Shown in pieces: positions 31,204 to 58,591 of a stretch of DNA of 64,000 bases (within the stretch, counting starts at the first letter, position 1; each line of letters opens with the position of its first letter). The translations under genes and the position numbers were made by a program. A model generated the notes under the pieces. It was not told the DNA's origin, did no database searches, and was given only the letters and a program-made list of their open reading frames with translations. The DNA is from Halegenticoccus tardaugens (GTDB lineage Archaea > Halobacteriota > Halobacteria > Halobacteriales > Haloferacaceae): NCBI RefSeq assembly GCF_004116405.1, contig NZ_SDIC01000003.1, forward strand, positions 310,001-374,000. The letters are read 5' to 3'.

Positions 31204-32061
31204 TCAGCCGCCCGTCAGCAGCTCGTCGACGTGGCGCTTCCCGAGGGCGATCGTGTCGTAATCCTCAGTTCCGATCTCCAGCGTCGCGGTCCCCGACCAG
31301 CCGGCGTCCGAGAGCCCCGCGAGCGCCGCGGCGAAGTCGATCCGGCCCATCCCGACCGGCAGGTGCTCGTCGCCGCCGCCGCGCGTGTCGACGAGGTGGA
31401 GGTGGCCGATTCGATCCGCGTGCTCGCGGAGGAACGCGGCCGTCGCGGTCTCGTCCGCGCCGGCGAGCAGCGCGTGGCTGGTGTCGAACGTCATCGACGC
31501 GTCGGGGTACCGCTCCAGCAGTTCCGGGAAGGTCGTCACGTCGTAGTAGCTGGAGACGACGTTCTCGACGCAGGGGTCGAGCCCGCGAGCGCGGGCGGCC
31601 GGGATCAGGTCGTCGAGGCCCGCGTGGACGAACTCGCGGCGCTCCGCCGCGGTCCAGCCGAGATCCCACGCGTCCGAGGAGGGGTGGAACACGACGGTCT
31701 CCGCGCCGAGGTCGACCGCGAGGTCCATCCCGGCGACGAGTTCGGCCACCGCGCCCTCCCGGACGGGCGTGAACGGCGAGCCCGGATCGACGGCGAACGG
31801 GAGGTGCACGACGATGTCTCTCCCCGCGTCGGCGAGGGTTGCCCGCATGGTCCCGCGGCGGTCGGCGATGCGCTCGCGGGCGTAGGGGCCGTCGAGCAGC
31901 AGTTCCACGAAGTCGAACCCCTCGTCCGCCGCCCACCGGACGGCCTCGTCGAACGCCATCCCGAGGCCGACGGTGAATCCGAGGTCGAGGTCGAGGTCGA
32001 GATCGGCATCGAGTTTCCGGTCGGGGTCGCCGTCTCGGTCGGTCCGGCCGTCGTCCGTCAT
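31204..32061 (-). CDS. Sugar phosphate isomerase/epimerase-like TIM barrel
   Basis: A 285-residue xylose-isomerase-like TIM barrel (AP endonuclease 2 fold). After an acidic N-terminus containing (Asp-Leu) repeats, it has FDFVELLLDGPY, DIVVHLPFAVDPGSPF, LGAETVVFHPSSD, VENVVSS, MTFDTSHALL and HLHLVDTRGGGDEHLPVGMG. The metal-site Glu/His/Asp positions are retained. ATG 32061 or GTG 32070 could start it. It is a clear paralogue of the protein at 53798-54580 (both end HLHL-x2-TRG-x2-DEHLP). The substrate is unknown. Confidence 0.85.
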   Translation of the reverse strand: MTDDGRTDRDGDPDRKLDADLDLDLDLGFTVGLGMAFDEAVRWAADEGFDFVELLLDGPYARERIADRRGTMRATLADAGRDIVVHLPFAVDPGSPFTPVREGAVAELVAGMDLAVDLGAETVVFHPSSDAWDLGWTAAERREFVHAGLDDLIPAARARGLDPCVENVVSSYYDVTTFPELLERYPDASMTFDTSHALLAGADETATAAFLREHADRIGHLHLVDTRGGGDEHLPVGMGRIDFAAALAGLSDAGWSGTATLEIGTEDYDTIALGKRHVDELLTGG

Positions 32062-32189
32062 GGATGCCACGTCGGGAGGCCTCGGTTCATAGCCGTTCCG
32101 GTCGGAAGGACCGATCTACATCTGAACTCGCGTAGCTCGCCGCGCCGGGATCGGAACGCTCCTTGCGATCGGCCCCGTACCCGAGGCGA

Positions 32190-51749: not shown

Positions 51750-52538
51750 CTACCCCTCCGCGACGTCGCCCGCCCCGCCGTCCTCACCGTCTCGCGCGGC
51801 CGCGACGGCGCGGGCGATCAACCCCGCTTGCGCTCCGGCGACGAAGCCCGCGCCGACGTTCACGACCGAGAGCACCGTACAGGACTGCAACATCCCGTAC
51901 AGCGCGGCCTCGCCCTCGCCGCCCGCGCCGTACCCCGTCGGGACGGGGAGGCCGACGACCGGGGCGTCGACGAGGCCCGCGACGACGGTCGGCAGCGCGC
52001 CCTCCCGGCCGGCGGCGACGACGAGCGCGTCGGCCGCCCTGAGCGCGTCGAGGTGGTCGACGACGCGCCCGAGGTGCGCCACGCCGACGTCCCCGATGAA
52101 CTCCACCGCCGCGCCCATCTCTCGCGCGACGACGGCCGCCTCGCCGGCCGCGGCGGCGTCGGACGTGCCGCCGGTGACGACGCAGACGGTCCCGTTCACG
52201 TCCGGCGGCTCGAATCCCGGCTCGCGGACGACGAGCGTCCGCGCGCGCTCCTCGCGAATCGTCTCTTCGCCCGGTAGCGCCGCCTCGACGGCCGCGACGG
52301 TCTCGGCGTCGGCGCGCGTGACGAGCGCCCGGCCCGTCGTCTCGACGGCCGCCGCCGCGAGCGTCGCGACCTCGTCCGGAGTCTTCCCCTCCGCGAGGAT
52401 CGCTTCGGGGACGCCCCGGCGCGTCTCGCGCGCGGCGTCGAACCGTCCAGCGCCCGTCGTCGCGTACCCACGCAGCCGCGCCTCGGCGGCCGCGGGCGAG
52501 AGATCGCCGGCCGCGACCGCGTTCAGAATGTCTCGCAT
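51750..52538 (-). CDS. larB: Nickel-pincer cofactor biosynthesis protein LarB
   Basis: A 262-residue AIR-carboxylase-like protein. The characteristic core is VVTGGTSDAAAAGEAAVVAREMG, then EFIGDVGVAHLGRV, VVAAGREGALPTVVAGLVD and GLPVPTGYGAGGEGEAAL, ending with VVNVGAGFVAG. LarB carboxylates nicotinic acid adenine dinucleotide, the first step toward the nickel pincer nucleotide of lactate racemase-type enzymes. No larA, larC or larE is in the window. A Shine-Dalgarno AGGTGA at 52543-52548 (minus) is 4 nt from ATG 52538. Confidence 0.92.
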   Translation of the reverse strand: MRDILNAVAAGDLSPAAAEARLRGYATTGAGRFDAARETRRGVPEAILAEGKTPDEVATLAAAAVETTGRALVTRADAETVAAVEAALPGEETIREERARTLVVREPGFEPPDVNGTVCVVTGGTSDAAAAGEAAVVAREMGAAVEFIGDVGVAHLGRVVDHLDALRAADALVVAAGREGALPTVVAGLVDAPVVGLPVPTGYGAGGEGEAALYGMLQSCTVLSVVNVGAGFVAGAQAGLIARAVAAARDGEDGGAGDVAEG

Positions 52539-53797: not shown

Positions 53798-54580
53798 ATG
53801 AGAGTCGGGTTCGTCACGCAGACGCACACGGGCGACGTGGGGTACGCCGAGGCCGTAGCGCAGGCGGCCGCGTTCGGCTTCGAGTACGTCGAACTGTACA
53901 TGGACGGGGCGACGGAGCGGACGCGGTTCGACCACGACCGGTTCGTCTCGCTCCTCGACGATCGCGGGCTCGATCTGCTCGTCCACCTCCCCTTCCTCGA
54001 CCTGGACCTCGGCACGCCCCGCGAGGCGGTCCGACGGGGGGCGCTCGACGAACTCCGCGCGTGCGTCCGCGACGCCGCGGAGATGGGCGCCGAGAAGGCG
54101 GTGCTCCACCCGTACTCGAACGCGACCCCGCCCGAGTACCGCCCCGCGGAGGTCCACCCGATCATCGTCGACTCGGTGGCCGAACTCGACGGGTTCGCCC
54201 GGGATCTCGACGTCGAACTCTGCGCCGAGAACCTCCCGGGCGTCCAGCTTTCGATCCACGACTTCGACCGACTCTTCGACGGCACCGAGGCGTCGATGAC
54301 GCTCGACACCGGCCACGCGCGCGTCGACGGGCTGGACGAGTCGGAGATCGCCGCGTTTCTGGACTCCCACCTCGACCGCGTCTCGCACCTCCACCTCAAC
54401 GAGACGCGGGGCCCGCGGGACGAACACCTCCCCTTCGGCTCCGGGACGCTCGACTTCGAGGCGGTGCTCGCGCCGCTCCTCGACGCCGACTGGGACGGGA
54501 CCGCCTCGATCGAGGCGTACACGTTCGACGCCGATTACCTCGAACTCTCGAAGCGAAAACTCGATGCGCTGCTCGCGTGA
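53798..54580 (+). CDS. Sugar phosphate isomerase/epimerase-like TIM barrel (cluster member)
   Basis: A 260-residue xylose-isomerase-type TIM barrel. Landmarks are MRVGFVTQTHTGDVGY, FGFEYVELYMDGATE, LLVHLPFLDLDLGTP, KAVLHPYSN, LCAENLPG, SMTLDTGHARVDG and HLHLNETRGPRDEHLPFG. It is a paralogue of 31204-32061. It is first of four plus-strand genes; its stop overlaps a GTG (54577) in frame with the next gene, hinting at coupling. It probably isomerises or epimerises the sugar or polyol used by its neighbours; the substrate is unknown. Confidence 0.85.
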   Translation: MRVGFVTQTHTGDVGYAEAVAQAAAFGFEYVELYMDGATERTRFDHDRFVSLLDDRGLDLLVHLPFLDLDLGTPREAVRRGALDELRACVRDAAEMGAEKAVLHPYSNATPPEYRPAEVHPIIVDSVAELDGFARDLDVELCAENLPGVQLSIHDFDRLFDGTEASMTLDTGHARVDGLDESEIAAFLDSHLDRVSHLHLNETRGPRDEHLPFGSGTLDFEAVLAPLLDADWDGTASIEAYTFDADYLELSKRKLDALLA

Positions 54581-54597
54581 CACCGCTCGGCGATCCG

Positions 54598-55869
54598 ATG
54601 GAGGATCGCGGGGGGCGACGCCGGCCGGCGGCGGAAAGACGGTCCGTCGGGGGTGCGTCCGTGCCGGCGAGTGACCGACGTCTCCGCTGGCGGTTCCGGC
54701 GGTACGCCTCGCTCCTCCTCGAAGCGGCCGCGCACGCGCTCGTCGCGTTCCTCTCGGGGATCGTCGGACGCGACGCCGACCTCTGGGTCTTCGGCGCGCG
54801 CGAGGGCGAGGCGTTCGGCGACAACGCCAAGTACCTGTTCCTCCACGTCGCCGCGACGCGACCCGGCATCCGGGTCGTCTGGGTCTCGCGCGACCGGGAC
54901 GCGGTCCGCGCGCTCCGAACCCGGGGGTACGAGGCGTACCACCTCTTTTCGCCGCGCGGAGTCCTGCTGCAGTTTCGCGCCGGCGTCGTCTTCCTCACGC
55001 ACAACTTCAAGGACGTCAACCGCTGGGCCGTCGGCGGCGCGACGACGGTCGTGCTCTGGCACGGGATCGCGCTGAAGCGCATCTCCTGGGACGCGGAACT
55101 CGCCGAACTCCCGCCGATCGTCCGATCCGCCTCGCGCTACCTCTACCGGCGGTACGACCGCGTCACGCTGACGGGTCGGGGGACGCTCGACTCCTTCGTC
55201 TCGGGCTTTCGCCTCCCGCCGTCGCGGTTCGTTGTCACGGGTTATCCCCGGACGGACGCGCTGTTCGACTCGGTTCCGGACGCCGACGTCGGCGTCGCGA
55301 CTGGGACGCTCGCCGACCTCCGTCGCCTCTCCGCGGAACACGACGTCCTCCTGTACCTGCCGACGTTCCGCGAGAATCCCGCGGAGCGCGCGTCGGAGCG
55401 CATCGACCTCGACGCGCTCGACCGCCTGCTCGACGCGCACGACGCGTACCTCGCCGTGAAGCTCCACCCGGACGAGCGACTCGAACGCGACCTCGACGAG
55501 TATCCGCGGATCCTGCGGATCCCGTCGTGGTCCGACGTCTACCCGATGCTGCCGCACGCGGACGCGCTCGTCACCGATTACTCGTCGATCTACTTCGAGT
55601 ACCTGCTCCTCGACCGACCGGTCGTCTTCTACCCGTACGACCTCCCGTCGTACCGCTCGGAGCGCGGGTTCTACTACGCGTACGACGAGGTCACGCCGGG
55701 CCCGGTCGCCTCGGACTTCGACGGCCTCCTCGCGGCGATCGAGCGCACGCTCGCGGGCGACGACCCCTACGAGACCGAACGGTGCGCGGTCCGACGTCGA
55801 TTCTTCGACCACCCCGCCGGCGGACGGGCGGCCGCCGTGTTCGACGCCGTGGCGGCGCTGATGGAGTGA
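54598..55869 (+). CDS. CDP-glycerol glycerophosphotransferase-like enzyme (TagB/TagF family)
   Basis: A 423-residue glycosyltransferase-fold enzyme of the Glyphos_transf family. After a basic N-terminus and an amphipathic segment it has KYLFLHVAATRPGIRVVWVS, VVLWHGIALKRI (H-G-x3-K, about 154), VTGYPRTDALF, LAVKLHPDE (about 287), LVTDYSSIYFEYLLLDRPVVF (about 327) and FDGLLAAIERTL. These match the active-site histidines of teichoic acid polymerases. It would transfer phosphoglycerol or another phosphopolyol from CDP. GTG 54577 is an alternative start overlapping the previous stop. Archaeal products are unknown. Confidence 0.88.
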   Translation: MEDRGGRRRPAAERRSVGGASVPASDRRLRWRFRRYASLLLEAAAHALVAFLSGIVGRDADLWVFGAREGEAFGDNAKYLFLHVAATRPGIRVVWVSRDRDAVRALRTRGYEAYHLFSPRGVLLQFRAGVVFLTHNFKDVNRWAVGGATTVVLWHGIALKRISWDAELAELPPIVRSASRYLYRRYDRVTLTGRGTLDSFVSGFRLPPSRFVVTGYPRTDALFDSVPDADVGVATGTLADLRRLSAEHDVLLYLPTFRENPAERASERIDLDALDRLLDAHDAYLAVKLHPDERLERDLDEYPRILRIPSWSDVYPMLPHADALVTDYSSIYFEYLLLDRPVVFYPYDLPSYRSERGFYYAYDEVTPGPVASDFDGLLAAIERTLAGDDPYETERCAVRRRFFDHPAGGRAAAVFDAVAALME

Positions 55870-55977
55870 CCTCCGTCTCGGTCGACGGGTTGCCCATCAC
55901 TTTCGATTCGTGCCAATATAGAACACGGGAGGTGTACTGTCACACTACCATCGGTATGTATCACCAACAGACAGTTT

Positions 55978-56005
55978 GATATAGCGGATGATCCAACGAT
56001 CCGCT
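55978..56005 (+). promoter_or_regulatory. TATA box and inverted repeat before the GDPD gene
   Basis: GATATAG (55978-55984) is about 35 nt upstream of ATG 56019. An inverted repeat AGCGGAT (55983-55989) and ATCCGCT (55999-56005) with a 9-nt spacer overlaps the expected transcription start and may be an operator. Confidence 0.5.
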
Positions 56006-56018
56006 GACGAAACTCAGT

Positions 56019-56948
56019 ATGGCGTGTCAACCGGGATCCACCGACCGGCCCGATCTTCTTCCACGAACCGGCGACGTCGCCTGCATCGCCCACCGCGGTT
56101 TCGCGGGGGTTTCACCCGAGAACACTCGCACCGCCTTCGAACGCGCCGTCGACGACGCGACCCCGCACGGCCGGGCTGACGCCGTCGAACTCGACGTCGT
56201 GCCGACCGCCGACGGCGAGATCGTCGTATTCCACGACGCGACCCTCGGCAGAGTCACCGACGCGCCCCCGCGGCTGCGCGACCGGCCGATCTGGGAGATC
56301 CCGTTCGAGACGCTCCGCCGCTTCGACGTGCTCGAAAGCGGCGACCCCGTCCCGTCGCTCTCGGACGTCCTCGACCTCGTTCCGCCGGACGTCGGCGTGA
56401 ACGTCGAGTTCAAGAACCCCGGCACGTCGGCCGTCGAGTACGGCGCGCTCGACGCCGAGACGCTTTCGAGGGGGCGCGAGCGCTGGCGCGACTTCGCCGC
56501 CGACGTGCTCTCCGTGCTCTCCGCGTATCCGCACGACGTGCTCGTCTCCTCGTTCCACGAGGCCGCCATCGCCGCCGTCCGCGACGTCGATCCGTCGGTC
56601 CCGATCGCGACCGTCTTCTTCGACTCCATCGCCGACGGCTTCCGCGTCGCGCGCCGCCACGACTGCGAGGTGATCCACGCGCCGTGGAACATGGTGTACG
56701 GGACGTCGCTCTTCAACGAGGAGTACTGCTCGGGACCGTTCGAACCGATCGATCTCGTCGAGATCGCCCACGACGAGGGCCGGGCGGTCAACGTCTGGAC
56801 CGTCGACAGCCCACGACAGGCCGGCCAGCTCAGCCGAGCCGGCGTCGACGGCCTCATCGCGGACTACCCGGGACTTCTCGCTCCCGAGGGCGCGCTCGAC
56901 GACGCCGCTTCCGACGCGGCGGCTCTCGAACCGATCCAGCTTTCCTGA
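56019..56948 (+). CDS. Glycerophosphodiester phosphodiesterase (GDPD)
   Basis: A 309-residue TIM-barrel GDPD. Catalytic segments are CIAHRGFAGVSPENTRTAFE (His-Arg), ADAVELDVVPTADGEIVVFHD (Glu-x-Asp, His) and VNVEFKNPG (Glu-x-Lys). It would hydrolyse a glycerophosphodiester to an alcohol and glycerol phosphate, or trim or recycle a glycerol phosphate polymer or lipid head groups. There is no clear signal peptide. It is third in the cluster, with its own AT-rich promoter 150 bp after the CDP-glycerol transferase-like gene. Confidence 0.92.
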   Translation: MACQPGSTDRPDLLPRTGDVACIAHRGFAGVSPENTRTAFERAVDDATPHGRADAVELDVVPTADGEIVVFHDATLGRVTDAPPRLRDRPIWEIPFETLRRFDVLESGDPVPSLSDVLDLVPPDVGVNVEFKNPGTSAVEYGALDAETLSRGRERWRDFAADVLSVLSAYPHDVLVSSFHEAAIAAVRDVDPSVPIATVFFDSIADGFRVARRHDCEVIHAPWNMVYGTSLFNEEYCSGPFEPIDLVEIAHDEGRAVNVWTVDSPRQAGQLSRAGVDGLIADYPGLLAPEGALDDAASDAAALEPIQLS

Positions 56949-57034
56949 CGGTCGACGAGTACCCCCTCGGCCGACGACAGTCGATCGCCGCTGACACTCT
57001 CCTCCGCACGTAATTCTCATAAAATCAGACATGT

Positions 57035-57043
57035 GTTTATTAT
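57035..57043 (+). promoter_or_regulatory. TATA box of the nucleotidyltransferase-HAD gene
   Basis: TTTATTATT lies 25-33 nt upstream of ATG 57068, in an AT-rich stretch. Confidence 0.55.
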
Positions 57044-57067
57044 TCTGTCCGTGGTAGATCCTGTACA

Positions 57068-58591
57068 ATGGCTCGCTGTTCACAGGCTGTCGTCTTAGCT
57101 GCGGGTATCGGTTCTCGACTCAGGCCGATCACGCTCCGAAAGCCGAAGTGCTGCGTTTCGGTTGATTCGACCCCTATCTTGGCCCATCAGCTTCGAGCGT
57201 ACGCCGACGCCGGCCTCTCCGAAGTCCACGTCGTCTCCGGGTACCTCCACGATCGGACGGCGCGGCTGTGCGAGCGCGTCGCCGCCGACTACGACGATTT
57301 CGACGTGTCGGTGATCGAAAACGAAGTGTTCGCGAACACGGACAACCTGTACTCGCTTTCGCTCGCGCGGGAGGCGGTCGACGGGGAGGCGTTCGTGCTC
57401 GCGAACGGCGACGTCGTCTTCGACCCCGAGATCCCGACGCGCCTCCTCGCCGACGAGGGCGAGAGCGCCATCGCCTGCGACACGGGCGCGTACTCCGAGG
57501 AGGCGATGAAGGTCACGGCGGACGAGAAGGGCCGACTCACCCACATCAGCAAGGAGATACCCCGCGAGGAAGCGTACGCCTCCTCCATCGACCTGTATCG
57601 GTTCTCCCCGTCGTTCTCGGCGGCGCTCTTCGACGAACTCGAACGGATCATCGAGTGCCGGGGGGAGTACACCGGGTGGTCAGAGATCGCCATCGATCGG
57701 CTGCTCCGAACGGGCAGACACGACGTCCGTCCGGTCGACGTGGCGGGGCTTCCGTGGGTCGAGATCGACGACGGGCGCGACCTCCTCGTCGCGGACGGGC
57801 GGTTCGCCTCGATCGGCGACCTGCGCTCGAAGGAGCTCGCCTTCTTCGACCTCGACGGGACGATCTACCTCGACGACGAGCCGATAGACGGGGCGGCGTC
57901 GATCGTCTCGGCGTTCCGCGAGCAGGGGACGGCCGTCTACTTCCTCTCGAACAACTCCGCGAAGTGGAAGACCGACTACGCGGCGAAGCTCTCCGCGCTC
58001 GGCATCGCGGCGGAGCCCGAGGACGTCATCCTCTCGACCGACGGCGTCATCGAGTACCTCCGCGCGAACGACGCCGAGGCGGTCCACGTCGTCGGGACGG
58101 AGGCGATGCGGCGGGCGCTCGCCGACCACGGCGTCGCGGTCGACGCCGAGGAGCCCTCGCACGTCGTCGTCGGTTTCGACACCGAACTCACCTACGAGAA
58201 GGTGCGACGGGCGACGCTCGCCATCCGCGACGGCGCTGAGTTCCTGCTCGCGCACCCGGACCTGGTCTGTCCGACGACGGCGGGGCTCGTCCCCGACTGC
58301 GGCTCGATCGGCGCGCTCGTCGAAACCGCGACGGGGAGGGAGCCGGCGCGCGTCTTCGGCAAGCCGAACCCCGAGATGATCGCCCACGTCGTCGAAGAGC
58401 GCGGCGTCTCCCCGTCGGACGTCGTCGTCGTCGGCGACAGGCTCGAAACGGAGATCCGGATGGCCGAGCGGCTCGGCTGCGATTCGGTCTGCGTCCTCAC
58501 CGGCGACGCGGACCGCGCGGCCGTCGAAGAGAGCCCGGTCTCGCCGTCGCTCGTCGCGTCCGACGTCGGCGCGCTCGCCGAGTTCCTCTGA
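57068..58591 (+). CDS. Fusion of sugar/polyol nucleotidyltransferase and HAD-IIA phosphatase
   Basis: A 507-residue two-domain protein. Residues 1 to about 240 form a nucleotidyltransferase: AVVLAAGIGSRLRPITLRKPKC (NTP loop), NTDNLYSLSLAREA and LANGDVVFDPEI (metal Asp). The NTDNLYSL stretch is reminiscent of LicC-type CTP-dependent enzymes. Residues about 255-507 form a HAD-IIA phosphatase: FFDLDGTIYLDDEPIDGAAS (motif I), YFLSNNSAK (motif II), FGKPNPEMI (motif III Lys) and VVVGDRLETEIRMAERLGC (motif IV). The joined product could make CDP-polyol and dephosphorylate a precursor or its by-product. The fusion has no obvious standard name. Confidence 0.88.
   Translation: MARCSQAVVLAAGIGSRLRPITLRKPKCCVSVDSTPILAHQLRAYADAGLSEVHVVSGYLHDRTARLCERVAADYDDFDVSVIENEVFANTDNLYSLSLAREAVDGEAFVLANGDVVFDPEIPTRLLADEGESAIACDTGAYSEEAMKVTADEKGRLTHISKEIPREEAYASSIDLYRFSPSFSAALFDELERIIECRGEYTGWSEIAIDRLLRTGRHDVRPVDVAGLPWVEIDDGRDLLVADGRFASIGDLRSKELAFFDLDGTIYLDDEPIDGAASIVSAFREQGTAVYFLSNNSAKWKTDYAAKLSALGIAAEPEDVILSTDGVIEYLRANDAEAVHVVGTEAMRRALADHGVAVDAEEPSHVVVGFDTELTYEKVRRATLAIRDGAEFLLAHPDLVCPTTAGLVPDCGSIGALVETATGREPARVFGKPNPEMIAHVVEERGVSPSDVVVVGDRLETEIRMAERLGCDSVCVLTGDADRAAVEESPVSPSLVASDVGALAEFL

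Follow-up and report, generated by a model that had tools for sequence, protein, structure and literature searches.

A conserved haloarchaeal gene module with predicted roles in phospho-alcohol transfer and turnover

Four plus-strand genes lie between positions 53798 and 58591 of a 64,000-nucleotide stretch of Halegenticoccus tardaugens DNA (the window; positions 310001-374000 of its contig, in a haloarchaeal assembly totalling 4.89 Mb). The first, isoA (53798-54580), encodes a TIM barrel protein of PF01261 (118 bits). It is followed by a tagF-like gene for a GT-B transferase of PF04464 (207 bits), starting at a GTG at 54577 or an ATG at 54598 and ending at 55869, by gdpd (56019-56948), for a PF03009 glycerophosphodiester phosphodiesterase (GDPD; 115 bits), and by ntHAD (57068-58591), in which a nucleotidyltransferase (NT; NTP_transf_3) is fused to a HAD-IIA phosphatase (Hydrolase_6). 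A check of the open reading frames (ORFs) finds all four uninterrupted and agrees with an earlier analysis made from the letters alone (the sequence-only reading), which had described four plus-strand genes in this order. The transferase motifs that it listed (HGIALK, KLHPDE, and DYSS) are all present, the GDPD catalytic motifs that it called intact are so (AHRG, VELDV, VFHD), and the fusion that it proposed is borne out, with FFDLDGT, NNS, KPNP, and GD in the HAD part. Judging from these families and their conservation, we think it rather probable that the four genes form a module for phospho-alcohol transfer and turnover at the cytoplasmic face of the membrane, probably based on CDP-glycerol.

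By profile, by its histidine and DYSS motifs, and by predicted fold, the tagF-like protein can be placed in the TagF/TarF/TarB family. Its PF04464 match (cut-off 22.1 bits) spans positions 11-365 of the 367 in the profile, S. epidermidis TagF aligns with it at both catalytic histidines, and H155, H290, and D327-Y328-S329 are invariant across 30 haloarchaeal sequences. The AlphaFold model (predicted local distance difference test score, pLDDT, 91.5) has a GT-B fold, for which Foldseek returns TagF crystal structures at the top (TM ~0.73), followed by TarL and the capsule polymerases Bcs3 and Cps3D. The sequence-only reading had staked its proposal on the active-site histidines of TagF being kept in a predicted structure, and the model matches TagF while the sequence retains them. 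A hydrophobic N-terminal helix is predicted at residues 24-56 of the ATG form, ahead of the GT-B domain; this domain is the only one of its kind in the protein, whose size is nearer that of TarF or TarB than that of the large polymerases. The enzyme is predicted to transfer a polyol phosphate from a CDP donor.

The N-terminal part of the fusion is a LicC-like cytidylyltransferase domain (57068-57820, plus strand; residues ~1-250) with an LAAGIGSRLRP loop, an NTDNLYSL motif, and an NGD. When its profile is compared with solved structures, LicC (1jyk) is the best match (E 6.7e-22, positions 2-236) and PntC the next; archaeal IPCT also gives a full-length match, and sugar nucleotidyltransferases match mainly the N-terminal half. 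LicC, PntC, and IPCT share with the domain the LAAGxGxRL...YSL motifs; LicC is a CTP:phosphocholine cytidylyltransferase, PntC acts on aminoethylphosphonate, and IPCT on inositol phosphate. By profile, then, the solved structures closest to the domain are those of CTP enzymes that act on non-sugar compounds, and cytidine is the presumed nucleotide of the domain. What sets the NT domain of the module apart from them is its fusion to a HAD-IIA phosphatase and its pairing with a TagF-like enzyme. Because it is nearest to LicC, and because its stand-alone relatives in other haloarchaea lie 0-91 bp from tagF genes, it very probably makes the CDP donor. No second NT scoring near the fusion was found in the genome.

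The C-terminal HAD-IIA phosphatase domain (57821-58588, plus strand; residues ~255-507) belongs to the C2a cap family and has the intact motifs of TM1742 (1vjr), E. coli NagD (2c4n), and M. tuberculosis Rv1692 (4i9f, 4i9g), from which it differs in being the C-terminal part of a cytidylyltransferase fusion. It scores 134 bits with TIGR01460, above the cut-off of 100, and its FFDLDGT, NNS, KP, and GD motifs are invariant. TM1742 is the nearest structure, with the glycerol-phosphate phosphatase Rv1692 at rank 4. NagD-type HADs are nucleotidases, so the domain could hydrolyze CMP instead. A distant NT-HAD fusion (34-37% identical) occurs in another lineage of the same phylum (f12), at loci L123-L126 of genomes G433, which has two copies, G410, and G401, where a contig end cuts it. 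Its HAD motifs are intact, its nucleotide-binding loop reads LAANDN rather than LAAGxG, and no match to tagF, gdpd, or isoA lies near it within the stretches fetched. Its NT domain may be dead, and given the degenerate loop and the lack of module partners we did not use this fusion to infer function.

The sequence-only reading called the product of the first gene isomerase-like, which now appears doubtful. The protein has a set of metal ligands of the endonuclease IV type (H63, H104, E144, D170, H173, H199, D208, H210, and E239), all invariant. Eight of them align automatically with H69, H109, E145, D179, H182, H216, D229, and H231 of E. coli endonuclease IV (Nfo), which is ~23% identical and whose ligand numbering we take from general knowledge; the ninth, E239, was assigned by position, where E261 of endonuclease IV is expected. 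The best solved relative is MJ1311 (3wqo), with which the corresponding residues are common in a pairwise alignment. The D-x-H pair seen in isoA is missing from the epimerase UlaE, and isoA scores far below the isomerase and epimerase equivalog cut-offs. A TIM barrel with His/Asp/Glu metal ligands is what isoA shares with CbiR, MJ1311, TTHB071, and endonuclease IV, all of the AP endonuclease 2 superfamily; in the phosphodiesterase CbiR, many of the conserved His, Asp, and Glu residues are needed for activity (PMC7733943). Since isoA keeps all nine endonuclease IV ligands, a metallo-phosphodiesterase is likelier than an isomerase, and we regard this as its probable activity. CbiR itself was considered and set aside, as isoA scores 83.8 bits with NF041277 against a cut-off of 105 and no cobamide genes were recognized in the neighborhoods.

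The window holds an isoA paralogue on the minus strand (31204-32070; ~44% identical) with the same endonuclease IV-like ligand motifs. Close to it are two ORFs, one cupin/zinc-ribbon-like and one resembling an iron-sulfur heterodisulfide reductase, both named by eye. Another paralogue (G000 C3, L127:8117-8899) adjoins a PfkB kinase gene. As to the second predicted phosphodiesterase, the GDPD exceeds the PF03009 cut-off of 23.6 bits, and 2pz0 aligns with it at the AHRG, ELD, and HD motifs. A crude test (maximum 19-residue hydropathy 1.0-1.2) showed no obvious signal peptide in isoA, gdpd, or ntHAD, so the hydrolases probably act inside the cell.

The grouping of these genes is well beyond chance. 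Among 392 Halobacteria genomes, PF04464 is found above its cut-off in 77 and the NT-HAD fusion in 27, and every one of the 27 also carries a PF04464 transferase (hypergeometric P ~1e-21, a value that ignores shared descent). Close isoA sequences (E<1e-89) are present in 20 genomes, all of them fusion-bearing (P ~5e-28, with shared descent again ignored). By our own reading of match coordinates, tagF lies near the fusion in 24 of the 27 fusion genomes, gdpd in 25, and all four genes are together in 17; the dispersal in relatives that would have told against the sequence-only reading is thus not what these haloarchaeal genomes present. The gene order varies: isoA-tagF-gdpd-ntHAD in the family of the window, tagF-gdpd-ntHAD-isoA in a second family (f6), tagF-gdpd-ntHAD with no isoA in a third (f3), and gdpd convergent with ntHAD and tagF in a fourth (f8). 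In the first order isoA runs into tagF or ends close to it, and in the second it overlaps ntHAD; a reshuffled order in which the coupling is kept speaks for a functional link rather than for a frozen arrangement. The survey of fusions covers the archaeal phylum searched. A search of genome contigs for the fusion, keyed on HAD motifs that proved too common, returned one locus only (Halohasta salina), and matches in a plasmid collection covered about half of the query or less.

The history of the families points to a wider pairing. TagF-like proteins of the module form one clade (Shimodaira-Hasegawa-like approximate likelihood ratio test, SH-aLRT, 98) together with one extra member from a fusion-less genome, and the NT domains of the fusions form another (SH-aLRT 98), whose sister clade consists of stand-alone NT proteins. 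The genes for the latter adjoin tagF on its own strand and, wherever the distance could be measured, are 0-91 bp from it. A LicC-like NT and a TagF-like transferase thus appear to be a general haloarchaeal pair, and the module in the window a second version of it, fused and rich in hydrolases. Three of these loci were checked with Pfam; Wzx-type flippases are among the neighbors in all three and glycosyltransferases in two. Direct adjacency of a stand-alone LicC-like NT and a TagF-like gene was seen at L047, L051, L055, L057-L060, and L063-L066. In several of these there are also Wzx-type flippases, glycosyltransferases, and a hydrolase of ~310 aa (family F5) that recurs and has weak sulfatase/PglZ similarity. 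It is possible that these loci make a haloarchaeal phosphopolyol surface glycan.

We suggest the following scheme for the module. The NT domain would convert CTP and an alcohol phosphate to a CDP-alcohol, most likely CDP-glycerol, and the TagF-like enzyme, which its hydrophobic N-terminal helix would tether to the membrane on the cytoplasmic side, would move the phospho-alcohol to a lipid or lipid-linked acceptor, releasing CMP. The GDPD, and possibly isoA, would cleave the resulting phosphodiesters, and the HAD domain would dephosphorylate released or surplus phospho-alcohol, or CMP. The scheme builds on the observed domain families, intact active-site residues, single-clade histories, co-occurrence, and adjacency of the genes; what we infer is that the nucleotide is cytidine and the alcohol glycerol, that the acceptor lies in the membrane, that isoA acts as a phosphodiesterase, and which way the flux runs. 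Glycerol is favored because a GDPD is present and because the HAD domain is Rv1692-like. A more specific version, which we offer tentatively and with clearly less confidence than the general scheme, is an archaeal CDP-glycerol cycle in which a LicC-type CTP:glycerol-phosphate cytidylyltransferase (GCT) fusion supplies the donor, TagF adds phosphoglycerol (possibly sn-1) to a membrane lipid or a lipid-linked glycan, and two unrelated phosphodiesterases in the cytoplasm and the fused phosphatase reverse this head-group modification.

Several observations weigh against the scheme. All functions in the module are predicted from homology, LicC-type enzymes take several phospho-alcohols, with no family here fixing glycerol, and the cluster has no gene for building an acceptor. 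The association is also incomplete, with no close isoA in 7 of the 27 fusion genomes, no adjacent gdpd in 2, and a tagF that does not adjoin the fusion in 3. Relatives of the GDPD are also common in haloarchaea lacking the module (217 of 392 genomes). Paralogues of isoA exist away from the module too, including the one next to a PfkB sugar kinase gene, and leave room for a carbohydrate role of isoA, perhaps as an isomerase.

The sequence-only reading had likened the cluster to a teichoic acid pathway built on a CDP-polyol. CDP-alcohol activation and transfer are supported, given the LicC-type NT and a TagF-type transferase with an intact active site; the likeness to wall teichoic acid synthesis is not. 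What the module has in common with the Gram-positive systems (TagD/TagB/TagF and TarF/TarL) is a PF04464 GT-B enzyme that keeps the two catalytic histidines and is predicted to use a CDP-alcohol donor, but its donor enzyme is LicC-like and phosphatase-fused rather than TagD, its transferase has a single GT-B domain, and it does not lie in a surface-polymer locus. The genome gave no match to the LCP ligase (PF03816) or TagA (PF03808), and its best match to TagD (TIGR01518) was 29 bits against a cut-off of 165, with control genomes positive in each case. Hence TagF-type chemistry appears supported and a bacterial-type wall teichoic acid pathway does not, and we set aside a full pathway of this kind for a module that sits among housekeeping genes. 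A looser version, in which TagF polymerizes phosphoglycerol into the backbone of a teichoic-like polymer of the surface or capsule and trimming falls to the phosphodiesterases, would accord with TagF and TarL being the nearest solved structures of the transferase and with the trimming of teichoic acids by GDPDs in bacteria. Other haloarchaeal tagF genes are indeed often found beside Wzx-type flippases and glycosyltransferases, but in mapped relatives the module is not, and the probably intracellular hydrolases and a transferase of TarF/TarB size also argue against a polymer, which we consider unlikely.

The same machinery could instead put another alcohol, such as ribitol, inositol, or an amino-alcohol, on the CDP donor, with the GDPD and HAD domain acting on it. 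The NT domain has LicC, PntC, and IPCT among its closest solved relatives, and their substrates make this conceivable, as does the inclusion of the ribitol-phosphate enzyme TarL in PF04464; we nevertheless find it unlikely, since in 25 of the 27 fusion genomes the pair has a GDPD next to it, which points to glycerophosphodiesters, and the neighborhoods showed no recurring gene that we recognized as a kinase, reductase, or synthase for another polyol. If the genes served salvage or catabolism of glycerophosphodiesters and sugar phosphates, the GDPD, the HAD phosphatase, and a TIM barrel isomerase or epimerase would degrade head groups, and the NT and TagF would be incidental. In favor of this reading, three of the five activities belong to hydrolytic or isomerase-like families, one isoA paralogue adjoins the PfkB kinase gene, and GDPDs are common without the module. 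However, nothing in the gene set is as constant as the pairing of NT and TagF, close isoA orthologues occur only with the fusion, abutting tagF or ntHAD, and isoA has the metal site of the phosphodiesterases of its superfamily, which together make salvage very unlikely.

The proposed CDP-glycerol chemistry has an archaeal precedent. A 2021 paper describes CDP-glycerol synthesis for glycerophosphoinositol in Archaeoglobus fulgidus and calls the GCT enzyme as-yet-unidentified (PMC8262930). This activity is known from lysates of the hyperthermophile, and its likeness to the NT domain is one of predicted activity. Glycerol kinase of heterotrophic archaea reportedly makes Gro3P, and the archaeal dehydrogenase makes Gro1P (PMC8262930), so that either stereoisomer may serve. 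In the literature searched, whose coverage left most subscription journals outside, we came across no account of CDP-glycerol transfer by haloarchaea, nor of an NT-HAD fusion combined with a TagF-like enzyme and two phosphodiesterases; each protein family is already known, and it is the combination that we did not find described there.

At the level of transcription, the cluster is probably not one operon. The tagF frame may start at the GTG that overlaps the isoA stop codon (GTGA, 54577-54580), and these two genes are probably coupled. An AT-richer gap of ~120-150 bp precedes both gdpd and ntHAD, and parts of these gaps are conserved among the closest relatives. The probable gdpd promoter region (55929-56018, plus strand) contains GTATGTA ... 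AGTTTGAT (window 55954-55985), and that of ntHAD (56978-57067, plus strand) a TTATT-like box ... CGTGGTA (window 57037-57060), both common to the five closest relatives. These short motifs are possible promoter or regulator sites, and with the gaps they make three transcription units likely; a single operon of four genes was set aside on this comparison. The module is flanked by minus-strand larB and rpiA upstream and by orc1/cdc6 downstream, named from family matches. The larB gene (nickel-pincer cofactor), which adjoins rpiA, lies at window 51750-52538 on the minus strand. Mapped relatives likewise have the module among housekeeping rather than surface-glycan genes, including what we take to be sucCD, a YchF-like GTPase, and ATP synthase from recognizing their sequences in the maps.

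Haloarchaea may thus use TagF-like enzymes in two ways, in surface-glycan loci with a stand-alone NT and in a housekeeping-located module with an NT-phosphatase fusion. The latter is a testable candidate for archaeal synthesis of CDP-glycerol, or of another CDP-alcohol, and points to a phosphodiester-linked modification in haloarchaea that would bring its own removal enzymes.

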